From a virus: DNA of 38,380 nucleotides. The position numbers and the translations under genes are program-made. A model generated the notes under the pieces. It worked only from the letters and a program-made list of their open reading frames with translations, made no database searches and was not told the DNA's origin. The stretch lies in IMG/VR virus record IMGVR_UViG_3300035698_002621, positions 1-38,380 of that record; one strand, given 5' to 3'. Shown here piece after piece: positions 5,199-29,509 of this stretch (position 1 is the stretch's first letter; each line of letters begins with the position of its first letter).

Positions 5199-5633
5199 TT
5201 AGGTTGCTGTTGCGTGAACGAGTGGCCCTGCCGATTGCGCCCAATCTGCCGACCATCCTTGTAAACCTTCCGCGCTGTTTGTTTTGGTGATATTGCTCAA
5301 CACGACATTTCCGCTGAACATGCTTGCCGTTGATTCGATGAACTTCGCAGCCATTACCGCCGGTACGCCTCCAGATACAAATTGTATATCTGCCCGTTGC
5401 GTAGGTGACGACGATGCGCTTGATGCCAATGCCGGGTCAAACCGCATAACGCCATTCAGACTACCGTTGAAATCTTTGTACTTGCTGTATATTCGCTTTG
5501 GACCTGAGCTACCAAGATCGGGCGTGTCGATAGCCCCGGTGTTGATATTCATGGTCCATCCGTTCATGTATGACAGCTTTTTACCGTCTAAGTGCAGAAC
5601 ACCATCTGCCCCATATATAAAATCGTTAGCCAT
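5199..5633 (-). CDS. Major tail protein, second copy
   Basis: This 144-residue protein is a paralogue of the next gene upstream (5643-6074). Both begin with MAN.FIYG.DG, share NGWTMNINTG, DTPDLGSSGPKR and YSKYKDF, and end with SAEGLQGWSADWAQ. The family forms the stacked rings of the tail tube. AGGAG lies six bases before the ATG. The middle third, about residues 65-100, is where the two copies differ most. SPP1 also makes two forms of tail tube protein, but from one gene by frameshift; here they are separate tandem genes. One copy may be the bulk tube subunit and the other a minor or tip form; the sequence does not say which. Confidence 0.83.
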   Translation of the reverse strand: MANDFIYGADGVLHLDGKKLSYMNGWTMNINTGAIDTPDLGSSGPKRIYSKYKDFNGSLNGVMRFDPALASSASSSPTQRADIQFVSGGVPAVMAAKFIESTASMFSGNVVLSNITKTNSAEGLQGWSADWAQSAGPLVHATAT

Positions 5634-5642
5634 ACGCTACTC

Positions 5643-6074
5643 CTATGTAGATGTATTACTATCGTGCGCCAGTGGTCCGTCAGCCTGTGCCCAATCTGCA
5701 CTCCATCCCTGTAAACCTTCCGCGCTTTGAGTCTTTACGATATTCGAGAACACAACATTACCCTTGAACATGCTCTGACTCGATTCGACGAACTTGGTAT
5801 ACAATTTCGTCGGTGTACCGCCTGATACGAACATCGATGTTATCGCCTCTTGTGCAGCACTCGTAGCCGCCACCGGGTCGAACACCGTCTCGCCCGTCAT
5901 TGAGCCGGTGAAATCTTTATACTTTGAGTAGGTCCGTTTAGGGCCGCTCGATCCAAGATCAGGCGTATCAACTGATCCAGTGTTTATGTTCATCGTCCAG
6001 CCGTTTAGATAGGTGACTATTTTCGCGCCTACCGATACGGTCCCATCGACTCCGTAAATAAATCCATTTGCCAT
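5643..6074 (-). CDS. Major tail protein, first copy
   Basis: This 143-residue tail tube protein is closely related to its downstream neighbour and sits between the tail terminator and the chaperones, as in SPP1-type phages. The ATG at 6074 has GGAGG six bases upstream. Shared blocks include NGWTMNINTG, DTPDLGSSGPKRTY and SKYKDFTGSM, with a conserved C-terminal QSAEGLQGWSADWAQ. It lacks an obvious Ig-like extension. The strongly repeated blocks in both copies suggest a duplication that has since diverged, mainly in the loop region. The tail tube role is inferred from length, order and the typical 'NGW' beta-rich composition. Confidence 0.84.
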   Translation of the reverse strand: MANGFIYGVDGTVSVGAKIVTYLNGWTMNINTGSVDTPDLGSSGPKRTYSKYKDFTGSMTGETVFDPVAATSAAQEAITSMFVSGGTPTKLYTKFVESSQSMFKGNVVFSNIVKTQSAEGLQGWSADWAQADGPLAHDSNTST

Positions 6075-8705: not shown

Positions 8706-9004
8706 TACAACAGCACCTCTTCGTACGCTACGACTTTGTGCCCGGTTGAATTAGCTGACAACCGTATTCCAGTGGTCAAACCGCCACCTACAAACGCGCC
8801 TCTCGGTAATGCAAACCCAGACGATATCAGCGAGCTACCAGTTATGCCTGATGCCTGCACGAGTGCAACGGCTGCCTCAGAACTTACCACCTCAAATCCA
8901 TACCACTTGCCAGTTTTAGCCGCGCCGCTCATCGTCGATGTTATAACCGTTGCGTGCGTGTTTTTTGATATCTGCTTGTACCCTGCTCTGTCTCCGCCAT
9001 CCAT
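8705..9004 (-). CDS. Small virion-operon protein, unknown
   Basis: The real start is ATG 9004, which shares one base with the upstream stop (TAATG) and has GGAGG seven bases before it; this gives 99 residues. After a short basic N-terminus the protein is Gly/Ala/Ser-rich and beta-prone (ASGITGSSLISSGFALPRG, LSANSTGHKVVAYEEVLL), like a small capsid decoration or head protein. It has no motif that I recognise. Its neighbours are the putative glycosyltransferase-like gene and the connector. Confidence 0.62.
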   Translation of the reverse strand: MDGGDRAGYKQISKNTHATVITSTMSGAAKTGKWYGFEVVSSEAAVALVQASGITGSSLISSGFALPRGAFVGGGLTTGIRLSANSTGHKVVAYEEVLL

Positions 9005-9861
9005 TATACGCCTCCTACACCTGTACCTATGTTTCCGAGTTGATATTGTCTCATCATATATTCGCACTCTCCGATAGCGCCGTCTTGTCGAAGCTTCTGC
9101 TTTTCCCAGCGAATCATCTCGCTCTCGGCCTGAGACTGCCCGCCTTGCAACGACGTTAACCTGTCGCGCAGTTTCGGAATCGCTGGATGATAGCCCTCGT
9201 AACCGTATAGACCGTTTGAGGTTAGTACCGACCCGCCAGGAGCCATGAGTATGTCAATTCCGGCGCCTTCCATGCGCCCAAGCCAATACTCGCAACACGG
9301 TCTCTGCTCTGTGTACTCTTCGCGCGATGCCATGTGTATACCATACAGCCCAACGTGATACGGCTTACCAGTAGTCAGGTATGAGTGGTAAGCCCAAGCG
9401 AGCATGTAAGTGATACTCGTGGTGTGATAGCGCCTGTACTCCGGCTTGGTCAGCACGTCTATTGGGAACCGTACCGAATTAGGCACCTCTTTATAGTGGT
9501 CCATCATATATGTCGGACCTTCGTAATTGTTCAGCCGTTCGCGTATCTCTGGTCGATCCCAATACGCTCTATTGTGCATCTCAAAAAGCAGGTCAGAACG
9601 CTTGAACGCCGGGAACGTGGTACACACCGATACGCCCCAAATCTCGTATCCGTCATCGTTATATGGAGCCATCGGCATAGTTTCAGCCGTTCCGACTATC
9701 GCGAGCTTGTCTTTTTGGCAATAGAGCAATTCGCTTTTTTTACCTTTCTTCGGCTTGTACTCGTCCTTTTTCGGTAGCTCCGCCGCTTCTTTCTTTACAT
9801 TGATTATGTCTTCCGCGTCATCGACCAACATATTCTCAATCTGCGTAGTTTTATGTGCCAT
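9004..9861 (-). CDS. Rossmann-like phage protein, possible sialyltransferase/Maf-fold enzyme in the capsid operon
   Basis: From ATG 9861 (AGGAT four bases upstream) this is 285 residues. After a charged linker (residues 1-48) comes KLAIVGTAETMPMAPYNDD followed by YEIWGV, a glycine-loop plus Trp start seen in a family common in phages. Near residues 145-175 are HTTSITYMLAWAYH, then YHVGLYGIHMA and EEYTEQRPCCEYW. In GT42 sialyltransferases and DUF115/Maf proteins a nucleotide-binding loop is likewise followed by TSG...A...A...G..I.L.G.D. I therefore suggest, as an inference, a CMP-sugar or other nucleotide-sugar transferase. An enzyme here, between capsid and connector genes, is unusual. The C-terminus is a charged helix (SQAESEMIRWEKQKLRQ). 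Confidence 0.55.
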   Translation of the reverse strand: MAHKTTQIENMLVDDAEDIINVKKEAAELPKKDEYKPKKGKKSELLYCQKDKLAIVGTAETMPMAPYNDDGYEIWGVSVCTTFPAFKRSDLLFEMHNRAYWDRPEIRERLNNYEGPTYMMDHYKEVPNSVRFPIDVLTKPEYRRYHTTSITYMLAWAYHSYLTTGKPYHVGLYGIHMASREEYTEQRPCCEYWLGRMEGAGIDILMAPGGSVLTSNGLYGYEGYHPAIPKLRDRLTSLQGGQSQAESEMIRWEKQKLRQDGAIGECEYMMRQYQLGNIGTGVGGV

Positions 9862-9915
9862 ATGTATCCTATGTATCAATTGGTAGCGGGAGCCGAAGCC
9901 CCCGCCTATGAAAAT

Positions 9916-10383
9916 CTACGGTACGAGAATCGGGCAAATCAGGACATTTCCAGCGTCGGACGTGGCCCTCGCTTTCGATATCTTGATATACCCGTTGGTA
10001 TCCTTAAACCGCGTTCCGTCGAAAGGACCGATTGCAGCGATACCTACAGTACCACCGGTAGTCGCAAGCCCCTCAGTCAAAGCGGTCGTCGGAAATACAC
10101 TGTGCATCTTCACACGAGACCATGCCGAGCCGCGAGCTACGTAGTTCGCTTCCCAACACGAGCCAGACGAAGCAGACGCCGACGCGCCGAGATAGATATC
10201 TCCGGCAGTCGTTCCCACATCGGTCGTGTTCAAGCTGGCAACAAGTATAACTAACTTGCTGCAATCAACACCATTCACATCGAGATACTGGTTGTTAGCA
10301 CCGGAATCCAAGGTACTCCAATTCAGCGTCACGGGGTTAGATGAGAACGCAAGGCTCTCAATAGAACTTTCTTTAACTGCCAT
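9916..10383 (-). CDS. Capsid-associated protein, possible decoration protein
   Basis: The start is ATG 10383, just past the capsid gene stop and nine bases after GGAGG; 155 residues. The protein is beta-rich with Ser, Thr, Asn and Gly in abundance (LNWSTLDSGANNQYLDVNG, YLGASASASSGSCWEANY) and has no enzyme motif. A gene of this type directly downstream of the major capsid gene usually encodes a decoration or head-fibre protein. The Ser/Thr richness would make it a suitable acceptor for glycosylation, but that is only a suggestion. A 54-base gap separates it from the next gene. Confidence 0.6.
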   Translation of the reverse strand: MAVKESSIESLAFSSNPVTLNWSTLDSGANNQYLDVNGVDCSKLVILVASLNTTDVGTTAGDIYLGASASASSGSCWEANYVARGSAWSRVKMHSVFPTTALTEGLATTGGTVGIAAIGPFDGTRFKDTNGYIKISKARATSDAGNVLICPILVP

Positions 10384-10384
10384 C

Positions 10385-11236
10385 TTACGTTGCCTCCGCA
10401 GTATAATCAGCGTACAAGACGCCAAGGTTGTTTGGCCGTGTCACCTTACCACCGTAATACATCAGGCCCTTAGCAAGTGTTACGAACTGCTTTGAGGGTC
10501 GGACGATCTCAGCGGTCATGACCTGAGCGGCCATAGAAATTGAACCCTGATAACCGAAGAGAGCAGGGTATCTGTTAGTGCCGCTCAAGGCGACAACGTT
10601 GTTCGAGCTAAATACGTTAAACCCGTAAACTCGCCCGAGATAGCCTTCACCGAATACAGCGTTGTTGTCAGTCTTCTGTACGATACCGGCTAGGGTCGCT
10701 TTGTGAGCTAACCAAGCAGGAACTACAGCCCAACGGCCAGCGGTCGGTGTGTTCGCTTCATCGTGCTTGCGTGCGGCTTCCATGAAATAAACAAGCACGT
10801 TAGTCGAGGTGATATCTGCGCCGGTGGTTGATGTCCCGCCAACTGCGATAGCCGCGTCGCCATAAAGTGCCGCTATGTAAGCGTCAACATTATCACGCAA
10901 TGCCCATGATGCCTCATCAAGTCCATCCTGGATGAGCTTGATTCGCGCCTGAGCATTATCTACATCCTCAATCGTAAAGCTGTACGACGCCCCTTGATCT
11001 ATATCAAGTTTTTGACCAGCTGCGTCAAGCTGTTCGATGGTCAGGTCACTTGTCGTCCCCGGCGTATACGAATTGACCGAAACCGGCCCGACCTGTATGA
11101 TTTTTACAGACTGTCCGTACCCAGTGATTTCACCTTCGTAATCGGTGTTAGCCACGTTCATGAATACTGACGCGTCATTGAGACGCGCAAGTATTTGACC
11201 AGATACGATATCTGGTTTTAATGCGTCTAATGCCAT
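10385..11236 (-). CDS. Major capsid protein
   Basis: This 283-residue protein follows the scaffold and has the features of HK97-fold capsid proteins related to P22/SPP1-type coats: an N-terminal region without a long delta domain (ALDALKPDIVSGQILARL), a beta-rich E-loop-like segment (GQSVKIIQVGPVSVNSYTPG), a spine helix region (FTIEDVDNAQARIKLIQDGLD), an A-domain (VVPAWLAHKATLAGIV) and a C-terminal RVYGFNVFSSNNV. AGGAG lies six bases before the ATG. Position and length agree with the call. No protease gene is present, in keeping with a separate scaffold and no delta domain cleavage. Confidence 0.9.
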   Translation of the reverse strand: MALDALKPDIVSGQILARLNDASVFMNVANTDYEGEITGYGQSVKIIQVGPVSVNSYTPGTTSDLTIEQLDAAGQKLDIDQGASYSFTIEDVDNAQARIKLIQDGLDEASWALRDNVDAYIAALYGDAAIAVGGTSTTGADITSTNVLVYFMEAARKHDEANTPTAGRWAVVPAWLAHKATLAGIVQKTDNNAVFGEGYLGRVYGFNVFSSNNVVALSGTNRYPALFGYQGSISMAAQVMTAEIVRPSKQFVTLAKGLMYYGGKVTRPNNLGVLYADYTAEAT

Positions 11237-19242: not shown

Positions 19243-19286
19243 TTTGCGCCTCCGTTGTATAACTCAAGCACCTCGATAGTTCTCAT
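19239..19286 (-). CDS. Possible 15-residue micro-ORF linking two genes
   Basis: A 16-codon frame fills the gap between the dehydratase gene and the sigma-like gene. Its start overlaps the upstream stop (ATGA), its stop overlaps the downstream ATG (ATGA), and its last codons carry the GGAGG of the next gene. It may be a translational coupler and not a functional peptide. Confidence 0.3.
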   Translation of the reverse strand: MRTIEVLELYNGGAK

Positions 19287-20128
19287 GCGGGTCTCACCGG
19301 CGCGTACCATTCCATAACCTCGTCAAATAGGTCACGATTGCGCCAGTAGATAACCGTCGCTGAATATGGGAGATAGCGCGTAACGTCAAACTTATGCTCG
19401 AATCCTGACGGGTAGGCTAAATCCTCGACTTCCTTCTCGCCGTCCATCAATTCTTCGTACTCGATCGTCGTGTTGCCGTGTTCCGTCATCACCCGCTTTG
19501 CGATGTCGGTCATCTTATAGCACGGAGGGTCTTGCAAGTGAAACACATGAGGATTGTCGTCAAGGCATTTCACGGCCTGCGTTATTTGGTGAACCGCCAT
19601 TTTCTCCGTGATATAATGCCGCCGCGTGCCCTTGCCACGTATGACGATCGGTTCGCCCTTACGTGCTTTTTCTGCCCAGATCAATTCGGCGCACCCATTA
19701 GAATAGTGTATATTTACCAACCTGATTACGCTGCCGTACTCAAGCGCAATTCGCTCACCTGCGTACTTCGAAAAGCCGTAAACGTTGATCGGGTAAACCG
19801 CCTTGTCGGTCGATATCTGTAGTAACTTCCACTCACCGTCCATGCTTGCGAGCGCATTCGAGTTGACCTCCAAAGCACGAAACGGGTTATCCTCGCAATG
19901 CACAACGTGTTTCATCGCCGCGCAATCTATCACCACGTCGGCATGTGCCTTGTCCCAAAATCGCGCGTTGCAGATATCCTCAACTATCGGCGTGATAGGA
20001 TAGTCAAGCGATAGGTAGTGCAGGTCGGTCTCATTGATATCCACCGCTATTACGTCGTGATCGTGACAGTAATGCCTACACAAAGCGCTACCCAACGTAC
20101 CGGCTGCACCGGTTATGATTATTCGCAT
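19283..20128 (-). CDS. PseB/CapD-like UDP-sugar 4,6-dehydratase (NAD-dependent epimerase family)
   Basis: This 281-residue short-chain dehydrogenase-type enzyme has the Rossmann loop GAAGTLG at residues 7-13, AAMKHV at 70-75 and STDKAVYPINVYGFSK at 106-121. The T-D-K triad and Y117xxxK121 are the catalytic groups of the CapD/PseB/LegB dehydratases, which convert UDP-GlcNAc to a 4-keto-6-deoxy sugar with NADP+. It is somewhat short (PseB is about 330). It is the last enzyme gene of a cassette that also holds aminotransferase, CMP-transferase and nonulosonic synthase genes, so I place it as the first step of a pseudaminic- or legionaminic-type pathway. Exact product stereochemistry cannot be read from sequence. 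Confidence 0.8.
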   Translation of the reverse strand: MRIIITGAAGTLGSALCRHYCHDHDVIAVDINETDLHYLSLDYPITPIVEDICNARFWDKAHADVVIDCAAMKHVVHCEDNPFRALEVNSNALASMDGEWKLLQISTDKAVYPINVYGFSKYAGERIALEYGSVIRLVNIHYSNGCAELIWAEKARKGEPIVIRGKGTRRHYITEKMAVHQITQAVKCLDDNPHVFHLQDPPCYKMTDIAKRVMTEHGNTTIEYEELMDGEKEVEDLAYPSGFEHKFDVTRYLPYSATVIYWRNRDLFDEVMEWYAPVRPA

Positions 20129-20505
20129 GCTATTTCCTGTACGCGCCTCTCATTAGCTATTTTTACTGCGTGTTCAAGGTCGCGTGCGCGTATATCGCGA
20201 TAACTGACCATTTTCCCATCGTTCCACATACCCTTAAAGCCATGGTGTACAACGTTATCATATTTCACGCCCCACTTCCCTCTGTCTTTTGCCGATATTA
20301 CAGAACCAGTTTTCCGATACATGGAGATGTCCCACAACGGCATTCTGGGGGCTGTGCTGTTTATCTCGTACTCTTCAACCGTGCCCTCGTCCCACTCGTC
20401 GCTCACATCCTTAGCACACACCTCGGCTACAAGATTATCAGAAAACGCGGCAATTATATGATAGTCGCTGTATGATCCTTTAGTAACCAAATACACTCTT
20501 TTCAT
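20119..20505 (-). CDS. Conserved small phage protein, unknown
   Basis: The 128-residue product begins with KRVYLVTKGSYSDYHIIAAF, a start common to a family of small phage/bacterial proteins (VYLVxxGxYSDYxIxAxF) of unknown function, and ends in a charged helix (RDLEHAVKIANERRVQEI). It sits between the aminotransferase (overlap ATGA at 20502-20505) and dehydratase (overlap 10 bases), so it is co-translated with the sugar genes. I do not know whether it works in the pathway. Confidence 0.62.
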   Translation of the reverse strand: MKRVYLVTKGSYSDYHIIAAFSDNLVAEVCAKDVSDEWDEGTVEEYEINSTAPRMPLWDISMYRKTGSVISAKDRGKWGVKYDNVVHHGFKGMWNDGKMVSYRDIRARDLEHAVKIANERRVQEIACE

Positions 20506-21167
20506 ATTCCCTCCGAAAACATCGTAAATTGCGACAAATCCGCGTAGTCATCGTTGGGCAAATCGTCGTTATGGTCTGGAATGTATTGCATCAACGCTAA
20601 CCCCCTAGCGGCGTCAGTTGGTTCTAAAAGGCAATGATAACCCGGTACATCAAAAGAATCAAGTCGTGTCTTCACACCCTCTGTACGCCCATCGTAGCGC
20701 ATTCGGCGCAATGTGTCGGCTGTCGCTTTGTCGTCTGTGAGGATCATCCCACCGCGCCCGATTGGTAAGTGCTTGGCATAGTGGAATGATAGGCAAAACA
20801 ACATGTTCGGCTCGTACATATTTTTCGTAAATCGCCGCGCAGAGTCAACGATATTCGTCCCGCCGAGTAAGTATGCCCCGCTCCAATCCTTGCTGTTGAA
20901 CTCGCACTTGTGGCCGGCGAGTATCACAGCCTGCGCCACACCGACATATGTGAACCGTGGCAACCCTATATGTCGATTGCCTACTCGTAACCGCTCAAGC
21001 AGCAGGCAAAGCAGCAACGCGTTCGTGCAGCTATCAACTGCGACACCATACGGCGCACTCGCGTAATCGGCAACGCTTTTCTCAAAGTCACGTACTGTAT
21101 TCCAAGGTGAGGTTACACGGTCCCAACCGCTCGCGTATAGTGATTGCGAACTAAAGGTATCACACAT
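20502..21167 (-). CDS. DegT/DnrJ/EryC1-family (PseC-like) sugar aminotransferase, short form
   Basis: From ATG 21167 (GAGGAG seven bases upstream) this is 221 residues. The PLP-dependent sugar aminotransferase marks are present: SCTNAL at 46-51, FTYVGVAQAVILAGHKCEF at 72-90, D108 in NIVDSARRF for the pyridine nitrogen, and the PLP lysine K132 in SFHYAKHLPIGRGGMILTD, followed by EPTDAARGLALMQ. Members are usually 360-390 residues; here the C-terminal small domain is almost absent. The catalytic core appears intact, so it may be a minimal enzyme. In the pathway it would aminate the 4-keto sugar made by the PseB-like enzyme. Confidence 0.8.
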   Translation of the reverse strand: MCDTFSSQSLYASGWDRVTSPWNTVRDFEKSVADYASAPYGVAVDSCTNALLLCLLLERLRVGNRHIGLPRFTYVGVAQAVILAGHKCEFNSKDWSGAYLLGGTNIVDSARRFTKNMYEPNMLFCLSFHYAKHLPIGRGGMILTDDKATADTLRRMRYDGRTEGVKTRLDSFDVPGYHCLLEPTDAARGLALMQYIPDHNDDLPNDDYADLSQFTMFSEGI

Positions 21168-21426
21168 CGCAAAGCTCCTCGTAATCGTCAAGGTGGTCAT
21201 ATACCTCATCGACAACGTATCGGCCGATTGCGTCGTATCCCCTGAGTATAGCTGCGGGCATCCCTACTACAAACTCTATGTACGATACGCGAGCCTCGAC
21301 ATAATCCATTCCGTCGGCTTTTGCAGTCTCTATCTGTGTACGCAGCGTATCACGTATAGATTTATACGACTCGTACACGTTTTCGATACGCTGTAACTCG
21401 TTTGCAAAATCCTCTAATTCTGACAT
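21160..21426 (-). CDS. Small helical protein within the sugar cassette
   Basis: From ATG 21426, overlapping the stop of the CMP-transferase gene as TAATG with GGAG seven bases upstream, the protein has 88 residues. Residues 1-40 are a charged helix (LEDFANELQRIENVYESYKS), followed by a short hydrophobic segment (YIEFVVGMPAAILRGYDAIG) and an acidic end. It overlaps the aminotransferase gene by 8 bases (ATGTGTGA). No family is recognised. Confidence 0.55.
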   Translation of the reverse strand: MSELEDFANELQRIENVYESYKSIRDTLRTQIETAKADGMDYVEARVSYIEFVVGMPAAILRGYDAIGRYVVDEVYDHLDDYEELCDV

Positions 21427-21719
21427 TAGCAATCTCCTTTATTTCCGTGCATCTTAGTATACATCAGCTCGGCCATATCCCAATCGTCTTGCGTGTCAAT
21501 GTCAATGGCCCTGGTAGCGGGTATCTCAACGTAGCCTGCTTCCATCGGGGTCAAGGTTCGCGCCATCATTAACCAGGTTACATCTGCAACATACCATTGA
21601 CCGGCTGGGTAGTACACTTTCGCGAAATTATCGGAGTTGACATCCTTATATTCAGGGTAGCGAGGCGTTACCGTGTCGCCATTGACAATCAACGCACGTT
21701 CCGGTGCTTCACGTGATTC
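21426..21719 (-). CDS. PseF/NeuA-like CMP-sugar cytidylyltransferase, C-terminal part in a -1 frame
   Basis: Read one frame behind the upstream part, from 21719 the sequence gives ESREAPERALIVNGD, then TPRYPEYKDVNSDNFAKVYY, PAGQWY and TRAIDIDTQDDWDMAELM. These match the second half of PseF/NeuA-type enzymes, including the PERAL, DAGQ(F/W)Y and IDTxxDWxxAE blocks. A local TTG start at 21692, overlapping the previous stop, could be used alone, but it would miss the ESREAPERA stretch. Joined to the upstream part it restores a protein of about 228 residues, the usual length. I read this as one gene broken by a single-base frameshift. Confidence 0.72.
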   Translation of the reverse strand, partial: ESREAPERALIVNGDTVTPRYPEYKDVNSDNFAKVYYPAGQWYVADVTWLMMARTLTPMEAGYVEIPATRAIDIDTQDDWDMAELMYTKMHGNKGDC

Positions 21720-22111
21720 GTAACCGGGTACGCAACGTGACGCCCGAGGTCTTGCACTTGATGCAACCCCTTGATAATGTCAAACCTCTCAGCGAGTGGT
21801 GCGCAAGGGTATATCATTATAACCATGTCGAAATTGTTAATCCTGGTATCTAACACATCAAGCACGACATCCACCATTGGCGTGTCATCCAGACACAGCA
21901 CTTGGTCACGCGATCTCCACGCGCAACCAAGCGACATAGCAATCTCGCCTATATCATCATCATCACTCGATACCACTACATGATTGCAGCCAGTCGCATG
22001 CGCCAACTCTATCGAGTGCTGAATCATCGGCTTTCCGCGAAACATCTTCGTGTTCTTTCCCGGTAGTCTCTTGCTCGTCGCTTTCGCTGGTATTACGCAT
22101 AGTGTTTTCAT
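21689..22111 (-). CDS. PseF/NeuA-like CMP-sugar cytidylyltransferase, N-terminal part
   Basis: The start is ATG 22111, with AAAGGAG five bases upstream. The protein begins with CVIPAKATSKRLPGKNTKMF, the CTP-binding start motif (IPARGxSKRxPxKN) of CMP-sialic/pseudaminic acid synthetases, and continues with HVVVSSDDDDIGEIA and MIYPCAPL. The frame meets TGA at 21689 after an unrelated-looking tail (TNHVKHRNVR, residues 131-140), while the homologous continuation is in the -1 frame from about 21719. The enzyme activates a nonulosonic acid with CTP. The break may be an assembly error, a true mutation, or a frameshift used in translation; no slippery heptamer is evident. Confidence 0.78.
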   Translation of the reverse strand: MKTLCVIPAKATSKRLPGKNTKMFRGKPMIQHSIELAHATGCNHVVVSSDDDDIGEIAMSLGCAWRSRDQVLCLDDTPMVDVVLDVLDTRINNFDMVIMIYPCAPLAERFDIIKGLHQVQDLGRHVAYPVTNHVKHRNVR

Positions 22112-22241
22112 CGTTACTCCTTTTGACGAGATATCCGATAGCCGCAAATTGCGCTGATACCCTCGAATCTGTTTCGTCTTGCTTGGTTTCGAGTGCTTGT
22201 ACTCGCTTGGTTAGCTCGTGAAATGCTCGTAGGTCAATCAT
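21963..22241 (-). CDS. Small charged coiled-coil protein (overlaps CMP-transferase start)
   Basis: The 92-residue frame starts at ATG 22241, nine bases after AGGAG. Residues 1-45 (DLRAFHELTKRVQALETKQD) look like a coiled coil; the remainder is low-complexity charged sequence that overlaps the CMP-transferase gene by about 150 bases, which is unusually long here. The N-terminal part is in an otherwise unassigned gap, so some product is likely, though the true end or a frameshift may lie earlier. Confidence 0.42.
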   Translation of the reverse strand: MIDLRAFHELTKRVQALETKQDETDSRVSAQFAAIGYLVKRSNDENTMRNTSESDEQETTGKEHEDVSRKADDSALDRVGACDWLQSCSGIE

Positions 22242-22314
22242 CGCTCAACACTCCTATAAGCACAATTATCAAGACAAAGCCCAACAAGATGCCGACCGCT
22301 ATATCAAATATCAT
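22234..22314 (-). CDS. 26-residue single-span membrane peptide
   Basis: A 27-codon frame begins at ATG 22314, four bases after GGAGG and overlapping the upstream stop (ATGA), and ends eight bases inside the next gene. The peptide is almost entirely one membrane helix (DIAVGILLGFVLIIVLIGVL) with acidic ends. The good ribosome binding site and double coupling argue that it is real. No family is recognised. Confidence 0.6.
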   Translation of the reverse strand: MIFDIAVGILLGFVLIIVLIGVLSDD

Positions 22315-22526
22315 AACGCCTCCCAATATGGACAATGTTCTAAGTGGGTAGAACCTCTATGAATATGCCCACCGCACGGCTTAGGTATCCCGCCAACAAA
22401 ATAAAAAGCATTCGGCAACTCAGGAAGTTTCACTTGATATCCGCACATACCGCCTTTCTGTGGGTGTAGGCGACCGTTTTTGGTCCTGTCCCAATCTGCG
22501 TGTCGGCACTTATCGCAACTTTTCAT
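22311..22526 (-). CDS. Small zinc-binding protein
   Basis: The 71-residue product has CDKC at residues 4-7, C28, C51 and C65 with neighbouring His residues (H9, H54, H56, H62), a probable zinc-binding module. The N-terminus MKSCDKCRHADW resembles small phage proteins with a CxxCxxxxW start. The ATG overlaps the synthase stop (ATGA), placing it in the sugar operon. The role is unknown. Confidence 0.6.
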   Translation of the reverse strand: MKSCDKCRHADWDRTKNGRLHPQKGGMCGYQVKLPELPNAFYFVGGIPKPCGGHIHRGSTHLEHCPYWEAL

Positions 22527-23185
22527 AACGCCTCCAAAATATCGCGCAACTGCTTCGGTCGCAAAGCAAACGGTCCAGTGTCAGGCCCTGTTTGCCAATC
22601 AAGGCAAAAGTGCGTCTCGTATAGTTCTGGGCGGTAGATATTAAGTAAATCCATTCCTACCGTGTGATCGGTGTGGTCTGATATCCCCGCACGTAGTTGA
22701 GTGTCAGTGAACCGGCTTACGTAGTCTCCTGCTTTTGCCGGGTATTCGCGGACGCAACACATGAGATTCGTGTTTCCTCGTCTGATATACAGGTCGTGTT
22801 CTATGCTTGTTTCTATGCTCACGATACTTCCATGCTCCCAATACGTATTCCGCGTGAACAGCATTAGATGATCTTTCGACGCTTGATGATTCGCTGCCTT
22901 GGTAAACGGCACGTCAAATATACCGAGAAACTTCGCCGACTCGTAATCAAAAACACTCGCCGTAGTAGCATACCCAAGCTTTAGAGCGTAATCGTACGCA
23001 TACGAAAATATGCCCTGATGCAAAGCGCGAAGGTGTGTAAACTCACCACCACGGAATAGCTGCCATTTGAGAATGATTTCCGTCTCTCTATTATCAGCAT
23101 CGTCAACCTCGTCGATCATTGTGCGGACAGCGCGTGGGTCATTTTTGCAAGTCTCACCGCTGCCAAGGTCTAAAATTATCGTCAT
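22523..23185 (-). CDS. NeuB/PseI-like nonulosonic acid synthase, short form without SAF domain
   Basis: From ATG 23185 (AAGGAG five bases upstream; overlaps the previous stop) the protein has 220 residues. NeuB marks are in order: LKWQLF at 39-44, TTASVFDYESAKFL at 74-87, DVPFTKAANH at 91-100, CVREYPA at 144-150, SDHTDHT at 169-175 and YETHFCLDWQTGPD at 189-202. These outline the TIM barrel that condenses phosphoenolpyruvate with a hexosamine to give sialic, legionaminic or pseudaminic acid. Known enzymes are about 340 residues; the C-terminal antifreeze-like (SAF) domain is missing and the barrel seems shortened. With the other three enzymes it supports a phage-made nonulosonic acid. Confidence 0.78.
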   Translation of the reverse strand: MTIILDLGSGETCKNDPRAVRTMIDEVDDADNRETEIILKWQLFRGGEFTHLRALHQGIFSYAYDYALKLGYATTASVFDYESAKFLGIFDVPFTKAANHQASKDHLMLFTRNTYWEHGSIVSIETSIEHDLYIRRGNTNLMCCVREYPAKAGDYVSRFTDTQLRAGISDHTDHTVGMDLLNIYRPELYETHFCLDWQTGPDTGPFALRPKQLRDILEAL

Positions 23186-23821: not shown

Positions 23822-24243
23822 TCGTTACCTCCAGTAGCATCAGTGATCGGTGGTTCTTTCTCCTTTTGCTCACGCCAATAATTCACAAACCACTCTATGC
23901 GCCGGTCCTTCCGCTTATTCTCGGCTTCGAGGGTGGCGAGCTTCGTTTTGAGCAATTCATTATCGTTAGCCATGCACGTGATAATTTCCTCGCTCGGAAG
24001 GTCATACGCAACAGCATCTTCTTTCAACCATTCGTGCATGTATTCACCGGGGCGGCACCCGTTAGGCTCGGCATCATCCAACTTCTTAGATTCTTCCTTT
24101 AGAAAATGTCTGCGCCAGTTATCGAGTTCCTTCGTCTGCTCGTCGATGTGGGCGAGTAGGCTGGTCATCACAGCCGACGCCAATGGCGTATATTCGTACT
24201 CAGTGCAGTGAATTTTTATCGCTCGAATCGCTTCTGGTGTCAT
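23818..24243 (-). CDS. Small charged coiled-coil protein, unknown
   Basis: The 141-residue product starts at ATG 24243, six bases after AAGGAGG and 44 bases inside the repeat-protein gene. It has an N-terminal helical region (MTPEAIRAIKIHCTEYEY), a central segment (GCRPGEYMHEWLKEDAVAYD) and a C-terminal coiled coil (ELLKTKLATLEAENKRKDRR). No known domain. Confidence 0.55.
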   Translation of the reverse strand: MTPEAIRAIKIHCTEYEYTPLASAVMTSLLAHIDEQTKELDNWRRHFLKEESKKLDDAEPNGCRPGEYMHEWLKEDAVAYDLPSEEIITCMANDNELLKTKLATLEAENKRKDRRIEWFVNYWREQKEKEPPITDATGGNE

Positions 24244-25105
24244 TCGTTACCTCCTTCTCCCATAGTATTTTATCTCGATTATGCAATCTCCAATTTTGGC
24301 CGTCAAACGACGGAACCAATCCAGCACGCCACAAATCTATTGCCGGTTGAAACGGATTATCTCCGGATGCGTGTTCGGTATAGTCCCATTTTTCTACGTT
24401 TGGAAATAATGACGATATATAAGCCCAGACCGAAGCCCAGACCGAATCCCTGGCCGCAGCCCCGACCGAAGCCCCGACCGAAGCCCCGACCGAATCCCTG
24501 GCCGAATCCCAGACCGAAGCCCAGACCGCAGCCCCGACCGAAGCCCCGACCGAATCCCTGACCGAATCCCTGACCGAATCCCAGACCGAAGCCCCGACCG
24601 AATCCCTGGCCGAATCCCAGACCGAAGCCCCGACCGAATCCCTGGCCGAAGCCCCGACCGAATCCCTGACCGCAGCCCTGACCGCAGCCCTGACCGAAGC
24701 CCATGCGTCAACCAATTCTATCTCACGTTTCATGACAACCGATCGTGATTTTGTCCACGGATTAAACGGAAATGTAGAATGCTCAATATCCCAGTCCCAC
24801 GTCCTACTATGCATGCGGGTGATTATCTCTGATTTAGTGACCCTATCCCCCAACTCGAACTGCTCGTACCTGCGTTTGAATTGATCATACTCGACCGACT
24901 GCCCCCCGACTTCGCATTCGTATATAATCCTGCCGGGTCTGTATGCATAGCATAATCCATCAAGATCAGTGGCGTAGTATCCGCTAGAACAGGGCAGTGT
25001 TGCATCGGAATTAAAATCAGAGCACACGTATTTTTTTCCTGTGACGTATGTATGATTTTTGTATGGGCTGATTTTACCTGCAAGAAGAACCTTATATAGT
25101 TTCAT
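24200..25105 (-). CDS. Tetrapeptide-repeat protein
   Basis: This 301-residue protein starts at ATG 25105, six bases after AGGAGG. Residues 1-90 contain YVTGKKYVCSDFNSD, CSSGYYATDLDGLCYAYRPG and a short EYDQFKRRYEQFEL, resembling a leader domain found in phage repeat proteins (a 'G(F/Y)(H/Y)A...L' element). Residues 135-230 are about 24 tandem four-residue units of the form (R/G/W)(D/A)(S/A)(V/A), such as RDSVGASVWDSARDSV. The last 70 residues return to normal complexity with many Trp. The repeat may fold as a regular solenoid or amphipathic rod. Function unknown; it is reminiscent of, but not the same as, pentapeptide repeats. Confidence 0.72.
   Translation of the reverse strand: MKLYKVLLAGKISPYKNHTYVTGKKYVCSDFNSDATLPCSSGYYATDLDGLCYAYRPGRIIYECEVGGQSVEYDQFKRRYEQFELGDRVTKSEIITRMHSRTWDWDIEHSTFPFNPWTKSRSVVMKREIELVDAWASVRAAVRAAVRDSVGASARDSVGASVWDSARDSVGASVWDSVRDSVRDSVGASVGAAVWASVWDSARDSVGASVGASVGAAARDSVWASVWAYISSLFPNVEKWDYTEHASGDNPFQPAIDLWRAGLVPSFDGQNWRLHNRDKILWEKEVTNDTRSDSSDKNSLH
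24416..24703. repeat. Tandem 12-bp minisatellite inside the tetrapeptide-repeat gene
   Basis: About 24 imperfect units of 12 bases, based on CCGAAGCCC/CGAATCCCTG-type blocks on the plus strand. Because the unit is a multiple of three and free of stops, all nearby frames on both strands stay open. Unit gain or loss would leave the coding frame intact. Confidence 0.9.
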
Positions 25106-26328: not shown

Positions 26329-26617
26329 TTTCCAACTCCCTTATCCGTATGCTCATATCGTATATCGTGATTCTGTAAGTGTTAACCATCCCATTCATGG
26401 CATCAAGGTTGCCCTGTACGAAATCGAGCATTTCGATCGTCGCGTTTAGCATCCTCGCGTCACGCTCTGCCTTCTCAATGATATACTCGCTTTCGCCTTG
26501 GCGTAGGCTAATCTGCGTCTTAAGCCAGCCAATATCATCGGCCATAACAAACACGCCAATCATAAGACTCAGAACGAACGCACACAGAATCCCAATCGCT
26601 ACTGTCGTTTTACTCAT
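26321..26617 (-). CDS. Membrane-anchored coiled-coil protein
   Basis: From ATG 26617 (AGGAG five bases upstream) this gives 98 residues. A single transmembrane helix at about residues 5-25 (VAIGILCAFVLSLMIGVFVM) is followed by a coiled coil (YIIEKAERDARMLNATIEML onward). The build is that of a type II membrane protein. It overlaps the preceding gene by eight bases. A role in superinfection exclusion or membrane attachment of replication is possible, but I have no specific evidence. Confidence 0.62.
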   Translation of the reverse strand: MSKTTVAIGILCAFVLSLMIGVFVMADDIGWLKTQISLRQGESEYIIEKAERDARMLNATIEMLDFVQGNLDAMNGMVNTYRITIYDMSIRIRELENE

Positions 26618-26960
26618 TTCGTCTCCTAACGTTTTTAGCGTCACACAACTTTTTCAATGTCTCGCGTAATTCGGCCAACATATCAGAACCCTCGTCACGC
26701 TCGACCACATCTCTCGGACCTTCCAATTTCAAGTATTGACCATCTCCTTTGTTGGTGTCAAGTAGTTTCGCAATATCCGCGATACTTATCGTGTTTACAG
26801 GTTCGATTTTGTGATACTCGACTAAATCAAAGTACACGTCATCGAGCGAATGCCCTTGTATGTCACGCTTGTCCAACCATCGCTTGATCACCGGACCCGC
26901 ATCCTCACGCCAGGGTCCAAAGTATTCAAAGAGTCGTTTGATAAATGCGTCGCTTGTCAT
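26610..26960 (-). CDS. Protein coupled to the replication initiator gene
   Basis: The start is ATG 26960, overlapping the initiator stop (ATGA); an upstream start would extend into that gene and is unlikely. The 116 residues include AFIKRLFEYFGPWRED and WLDKRDIQGHSLDDVYFDLV, followed by an acidic-basic coiled coil end (DMLAELRETLKKLCDAK). In lambda-type order the helicase loader P follows O, but this is much shorter and no match is evident. A replication role is suggested by position only. Confidence 0.58.
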   Translation of the reverse strand: MTSDAFIKRLFEYFGPWREDAGPVIKRWLDKRDIQGHSLDDVYFDLVEYHKIEPVNTISIADIAKLLDTNKGDGQYLKLEGPRDVVERDEGSDMLAELRETLKKLCDAKNVRRRNE

Positions 26961-28591: not shown

Positions 28592-28733
28592 GTAGTATCT
28601 CCTTTACATCATGACCGTTCGCGTGTAGATAGGCTACCAGTTTAGTATTCTTCCGCTTGATGCTCAAGTAGTCCTCGTGTAGCTGTCTCATGCGCTGTTT
28701 AACATCGTCGATGGTTTCTTTTGATTTTGCCAT
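28554..28733 (-). CDS. Small basic helical protein (59 residues)
   Basis: The frame starts at ATG 28733, overlapping the PP-loop protein stop by one base, with GAGG seven bases upstream. Its first 45 residues (KETIDDVKQRMRQLHEDY onward) are a charged helix or coiled coil. It extends 38 bases into the methyltransferase gene. No family is recognised. Confidence 0.62.
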   Translation of the reverse strand: MAKSKETIDDVKQRMRQLHEDYLSIKRKNTKLVAYLHANGHDVKEILREPNREEQNTLY

Positions 28734-29509
28734 TAGTCGGCCTCATCGAGAAAGCACCCGCAACCGCCCCAATCGAAGAGGTCAACTTGCTTGTCCGACT
28801 CGACCAGGTACTCTTCGCGGAATGTGCGTAGGCTTTTGTATTGGTACTCGCCGTCAACCGTGATACGTAGAAACGGTTGCTCTTTACCAAGCACCTCGAA
28901 AACTTCCTGCTCGGCTTGTTCACACTCAAGATAATAGTCAGGTTTCTCAATCCACAACTTTCGGAATTGTGCTTGCCCTGCCTTAATGCAAAAACCGCCG
29001 CAGTTGTTATGATGGAAACCCATATCATACAGCCTTGGCGTGGTAACTCCCGAGTCACGACATTTGTCAACCATTTGTTGCTTGGTCAAATACGGCGGCT
29101 CACACATTGGGGCGTCGTAGACATAGGGAAGTTTACGAGGTTTTAACCGTTCTATTCTGTGTGTTTCGGTCCAATCGATACCCAGACTTATCACACACTC
29201 TTCGGGTTTGTGATTGTCTGCTACCCATTTATCGGCAAGCTCGCGTTTGAGTATCCTGCTGCACGGGTCTATTCTTGAGTTCCCCATGAACTTAACCGAT
29301 TTGAACACTTCCCATATGTCCCGACCGTCTGCGATGGTGATAAGTTCCAAGTCAAGTGCTTCCGCGCTCTCATTGAGGAACCGGTATAAATCCTCATCCT
29401 CGCACTTAGTGTCCGCGAACAATAACAACGGATCATGCCCTTGCTCTTTTAGTCTGGCTGCGGTCGCCCATGAGCCGATGCCACCGCTATACATCACTAT
29501 ATGTTCCAT
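28733..29509 (-). CDS. PP-loop ATPase / PAPS reductase-like protein
   Basis: The protein has 258 residues and the PP-loop SGGIGS at 8-13, with FADTKCEDEDLYRFL at 31-45 and DPCSRILKRE at 81-90, the pattern of the PAPS reductase / adenine nucleotide alpha-hydrolase family. Cysteines at 170, 174 and in CGC near 250-252 could bind metal or carry sulfur. This phage-borne subgroup has no well-known substrate; related enzymes adenylylate a carbonyl in base modification (QueC, TtcA, TilS) or transfer sulfur in DNA phosphorothioation (DndC). It is followed by the DNA methyltransferase gene. GAGGTG lies four bases before the ATG. Confidence 0.75.
   Translation of the reverse strand: MEHIVMYSGGIGSWATAARLKEQGHDPLLLFADTKCEDEDLYRFLNESAEALDLELITIADGRDIWEVFKSVKFMGNSRIDPCSRILKRELADKWVADNHKPEECVISLGIDWTETHRIERLKPRKLPYVYDAPMCEPPYLTKQQMVDKCRDSGVTTPRLYDMGFHHNNCGGFCIKAGQAQFRKLWIEKPDYYLECEQAEQEVFEVLGKEQPFLRITVDGEYQYKSLRTFREEYLVESDKQVDLFDWGGCGCFLDEAD

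Follow-up and report, generated by a model that had tools for sequence, protein, structure and literature searches.

A phage-borne nonulosonic acid cassette and a GT42-like gene in the capsid region point to a probable route of virion glycosylation

The virus record IMGVR_UViG_3300035698_002621 of IMG/VR, analysed here over all of its 38,380 bases (the window), carries four genes for a nonulosonic acid (NulO) at 19283-23185 of the minus strand and, at 9004-9879 of the same strand, a gene for a predicted glycosyltransferase (GT) that resembles the GT42 sialyltransferases in fold. Taken together, the data make it probable that the phage produces a cytidine monophosphate (CMP)-activated NulO and that the GT42-like enzyme attaches the sugar to virion proteins. 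We incline, with less assurance, to the wider view of a widespread new system, in which a GT42-like family is fixed in the head gene cluster, interchangeable phage-borne modules of the Pse-, Leg- or Neu-type supply the sugar, and the capsids are decorated with sialic-acid-like sugars. NulO synthesis and the transferase are well supported; catalytic activity and the exact sugar we infer, and a virion acceptor is proposed from gene position only. The product may be pseudaminic acid or another, related NulO.

The four cassette genes, with small genes interspersed, encode a NeuB/PseI-like NulO synthase (22523-23185, 220 amino acids; Pfam NeuB, E-value 1.1e-7), a PseF-like CMP-sugar synthetase (21426-22111), a short DegT/PseC-like aminotransferase dependent on pyridoxal phosphate (PLP) (20502-21167, 221 amino acids; PF01041, 1.3e-20) and a PseB/CapD-like UDP-HexNAc 4,6-dehydratase (19283-20128; PF02719, 1.1e-26). 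A preliminary description of the window had proposed this cassette; the synthase, aminotransferase and dehydratase genes stand at the positions it gave, and the synthetase gene consists of two open reading frames (ORFs) in different frames, at 21689-22111 (profile positions 1-134) and 21426-21692 (profile positions 148-221 of 222). The families it assigned hold for all four enzymes, and neither outcome that it had named as a refutation, placement of two or more genes in unrelated families or loss of active-site residues, was observed. The top NCBIfam pathway matches all belong to the pseudaminic acid pathway, namely PseI (1.2e-4), PseC (4.7e-11), PseB (3.2e-14) and PseF (3.3e-26 for the 5' part and 1.8e-10 for the 3' part). 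The Pfam gathering scores are passed for NeuB (PF03102, 32.0 bits against 22.1) and for CTP_transf_3 (PF02348, 54 bits against 22.6; 2.6e-14 for the 5' part). By eye, the key motifs are present: K-W-Q, SDH and ExH, STDKAV/YxxxK, the PLP-lysine region and IDIDTxxDW. The PseB-like protein retains STDKAV...YGFSK (YxxxK) and has UDP-HexNAc 4,6-dehydratases as its PDB relatives; the aminotransferase retains the PLP-lysine region and matches PDB aminotransferases.

The most doubtful of the four assignments, the synthase, was modelled with AlphaFold together with three relatives (39-45% identity), giving a predicted local distance difference test (pLDDT) score of 86 and a predicted TM-score (pTM) of 0.87. 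The ten top PDB matches of the model in Foldseek are all NeuB, SpsE or PseI structures (6ncs, E-value 6e-11 and TM-score 0.79; PseI 8h2c, E-value 2e-8), with the DAHP and KDO8P synthases ranking lower. The window synthase and its three relatives are TIM barrels only, the C-terminal SAF domain being absent from all four, and we refer to them as mini-NeuB. The catalytic motifs K-W-Q, SDH and ExH and the barrel lysine are unchanged across the four phages. Mini-NeuB thus retains these motifs at 39-45% identity and so is under selection. As a single-protein query, the window NeuB found no relatives in IMG/VR or in phage records; the alignment query alone recovered them. The phage record G055, which lacks the GT family, also has a short NeuB-like gene, at 26499-26951.

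The mini-NeuB cassette occurs in varied combinations: NeuB-PseF-PseC-PseB in the window, NeuB-GNAT-x-PseF in G001 (IMGVR_UViG_3300037504_000365, which likewise has a 127-bp repeat), PseB (7e-73)-NeuB-GNAT-PseF in L182 and NeuB-x-GNAT-PseF in L184. A DNA-level search of G001 with the window cassette gave no match. The GNAT acetyltransferases of the relatives lie between NeuB and PseF and belong to Acetyltransf_3, two of them with a weak likeness to PseH, so sister phages probably do encode the missing acetylation step. PseG was not noticed in the cassettes of the window and its relatives. The GT-like gene is present in all four mini-NeuB records, the L182 copy with two in-frame stops.

The GT-like gene at 9004-9879 (minus strand) lies a short way downstream of the major capsid gene, within the head operon and outside the region of the preliminary description; its presence there strengthens the suggestion of virion glycosylation that the cassette had raised. 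It has no match in Pfam, NCBIfam or PHROG. A search of IMG/VR with an alignment of the family found 112 encoding loci, and the 80 best of these were retained. An AlphaFold (AF2) model built from a 61-member alignment (pLDDT 85) has Campylobacter CstII as its two top PDB matches in Foldseek (1ro8/1ro7, E-value 4.5e-4, probability 1.00), and the sialyltransferases 2p56 and 9c08 are within the first six. Among viral structures, its neighbours are phage proteins that are either unnamed or MptE-like. In the family, E188 is invariant and Q192 nearly so. Weak sequence profile matches of the family are to CST-I and MptE-like in Pfam and to CstII in the PDB; that to CST-I (PF06002) is seen in 2 of 61 members at an E-value of 0.048 or worse, and not in the window member. 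We propose that the protein is a CMP-NulO transferase of a new phage family. Two paralogues of the family are found per phage in L003, L004, L028, L031, L039, L057, L067, L072, L073, L075 and L198, suggesting two acceptors or linkages.

The family is genetically linked to sugar activation. CTP_transf_3 is present in 24 of 47 GT-positive records and in none of 45 GT-negative records with the same capsid (Fisher p 2.5e-9, raw), the negative set being drawn from one capsid family and the positive set being broader. After clustering at 70% identity, the counts are 14 of 34 and 0 of 32 (p 2.4e-5). NeuB is present in 15 of the 47, and a NeuB-like match in one of the 45. An overlap of 4-20 bp between the CMP-synthetase gene and the transferase gene is present in L022, L025, L033, L034, L035, L038, L039, L042, L051, L052 and L054-L056; in L022, L025, L033 and L034 the gene order is portal, minor head, CMP-synthetase, transferase, scaffold-like and capsid. 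In L197, the transferase gene is overlapped by NeuB. Enrichment of serine and threonine in the capsid-region proteins, considered as an acceptor signature, gave p values of 0.03 and 0.01 between GT-positive and GT-negative records; the effect is small and confounded and is not used as evidence.

The sugar module of the GT-positive phages is of the Pse-, Leg- or Neu-type, depending on the phage. In G005 and G031, NeuC scores above the equivalog cut-off and is accompanied by NeuB and a CTP_transf_3 gene; G009 carries LegB and LegC slightly under the cut-off, and G026 carries PseB with a GNAT and a class III aminotransferase. On the G009 phage contig (L190), LegB, LegC, an NTP-transferase, NeuB and a CTP_transf_3 gene are found, with an integrase-like gene adjoining. 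In contigs of Bacillota metagenome-assembled genomes, a CMP-synthetase gene adjoins one or two members of the GT family in an ordinary chromosomal setting, and NeuB is also alongside in both contigs examined in detail.

In the proposed mechanism, the PseB-like dehydratase and the PseC-like aminotransferase would prepare an amino sugar, and the SAF-less synthase would condense the six-carbon sugar with phosphoenolpyruvate. The PseF-like enzyme would activate the product to a pseudaminic-like CMP-NulO. The steps that are not encoded, acetylation and release of uridine diphosphate (UDP), would be provided by the host. The soluble GT42-like transferase, encoded among the capsid genes, would then transfer the NulO from CMP to a virion protein. 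Candidate acceptors are the major capsid protein (10385-11236, minus strand; phrog_267, 1e-43) and a capsid decoration-like protein (9916-10380, minus strand), encoded between the major capsid and transferase genes and kept beside the former in relatives. We speculate that the benefit is, for example, charge, adsorption or a shield against host factors.

Several points weigh against this proposal. Nearly half of the GT-positive records are without a detected CTP gene, many of them being fragments, and the two record sets differ in breadth as stated above. The TM-scores of the GT-like model with CstII are low (0.38-0.48), the GT42 likeness is one of overall fold, and the subfamily to which the window protein belongs lacks the Asn of the WGLN consensus. 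All four cassette enzymes miss the NCBIfam equivalog cut-offs by far (52.6 against 408, 42 against 424, 92 plus 41 against 206 and 21 against 340 bits) and for this reason are not filed as true Pse enzymes. The PseC-like and NeuB-like proteins are shorter than the cellular enzymes, PseF is frame-broken in the window assembly, and neither PseH nor PseG is found in the window cassette, an absence already remarked in the preliminary description.

An unlikely alternative is that the cassette and the transferase alter the host surface (lipopolysaccharide, capsule or flagellin), blocking superinfection or changing a receptor. O-antigen is the target of many phage glycosyltransferases, and the bacterial GT homologues lie within chromosomal NeuB-NeuA islands, as such a role would suggest. 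A precedent is given by the prophage genes epaA and epaB, which act on the pseudaminic acid of the Acinetobacter host capsule (PMC12053666). Against this, the GT-like gene sits in the head gene cluster, adjoining capsid genes, across diverse phages; neither a flippase nor a lipid-linked transferase was noticed as its neighbour, nor was an integrase or a repressor seen in the window.

We also think it improbable, somewhat more so, that the cassette is real and degenerate in the window phage, a set of decaying acquisitions without function. The break in PseF and the reduced length of PseC and NeuB would fit decay, as would the GT-family match L187 (G095:24386-25078), which has one TGA and one TAA in frame and is possibly degraded or frameshifted. 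Set against these are the four mini-NeuB proteins with their conserved motifs and the nature of the break itself. The two PseF ORFs meet at a TTGA junction, a one-base frame break; both halves are colinear with PseF, the junction length is consistent with a one-base difference from G001, and the gene is a single intact ORF in relatives. A metagenome assembly error is possible. Programmed frameshifting at the junction was considered and rejected on two grounds: a slippery heptamer was looked for in vain, and the length of the junction corresponds to the one-base difference from G001.

That the GT-like protein is another Rossmann-like phage protein, such as an MptE-like pyrophosphokinase or a structural factor, with an incidental link to CMP-sugar genes, is very unlikely: the low CstII TM-scores, thiamine pyrophosphokinase as the next PDB match and the weak MptE-like profile would allow it, but MptE-like (PF01973) also takes in the Maf NulO transferases, and the linkage is strong, repeated with three sugar chemistries and found on bacterial chromosomes as well. 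Synthesis of a NulO by the phage and its transfer to the virion remain the reading that we favour.

The window has a direct terminal repeat of 127 bp and one gene spanning the join, so that the genome is closed, at about 38,253 bp, with almost every gene on the minus strand. It is that of a tailed phage, as shown by its genes for portal, minor head, major capsid, terminase, neck, amidase and methyltransferase, the nearest terminases and portals of isolate phages having only 28-48% identity. The small genes of the cassette, all on the minus strand, are a Cys-rich ORF at 22311-22526 that shares 4 bp with the NeuB-like gene and has no family match, an ORF at 21160-21432 also without a family match, and an ORF at 20119-20505 with weak DUF7336 similarity, a homologue of which is close to a GT-family gene in L036. 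Elsewhere, a 301-residue protein at 24200-25105 contains a long imperfect repeat (ASVGASVWDSARDSVGAS...), with two other frames open there too. Tandem paralogous proteins of about 144 residues each are encoded at 5199-5633 and 5643-6074 in the tail or neck region, and a PAPS-reductase-like gene (phrog_424) is located at 28733-29509.

If the proposal is correct, it is phage genes, for biosynthesis and transfer alike, that give the phage particles a coat of sialic-acid-like sugars. More than 100 phage proteins that are now unannotated would receive a family name, the presence in some phages of NulO genes otherwise filed as auxiliary metabolism would be explained, and there would be a direct way to test the role of virion glycosylation. 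Some GT-positive phages have NeuC, NeuB and a NeuA-type synthetase, which on paper would take them all the way from UDP-GlcNAc to CMP-sialic acid. Among 50,697 phage records, the GT family is found only in Microcystis phage Mvi-Yong1342-1 (PP496355), where it is annotated as a methyltransferase, and the phage records hold no close relative of the G001 PseF. No earlier description of a NulO cassette that a phage carries in linkage with capsid genes was found in the literature, the coverage of which is incomplete and leaves absence unproven.

The cassette resembles the PseB-C-H-G-I-F pathway of Campylobacter and Helicobacter in having homologues of PseB, PseC, PseI and PseF and, in the relatives, a GNAT beside NeuB and PseF. 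It differs in scores far under the equivalog level, a PseI without SAF, a short PseC, the lack of PseG and PseH, and its location in a phage. The GT-like protein has its best fold match in the GT42 sialyltransferases (CstI/CstII, PF06002), whose strand and helix motifs follow one another much as its own do and with which it shares the linkage to CMP-NulO genes; identity is about 11%, the TM-score is low, there is a long C-terminal helix, and the genes are in phage head operons. With the Maf/MptE-like flagellin NulO transferases (PF01973) it shares weak Pfam matches, phage structural neighbours and the proposed cytoplasmic protein acceptor, while being smaller, single-domain and not flagellar. 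Virion glycosylation in mycobacteriophages is not known to follow a CMP-NulO pathway. The Acinetobacter epaA/epaB genes are likewise phage genes acting on pseudaminic acid; their target is a host capsule sugar, with no synthase or virion link. Phage TayeBlu has one putative sialyltransferase (PMC12772287). In the account of Freeman 2023 given in PMC12691614, mycobacteriophage virion proteins are glycosylated by phage-encoded transferases, and in this respect that system is like the one proposed here.

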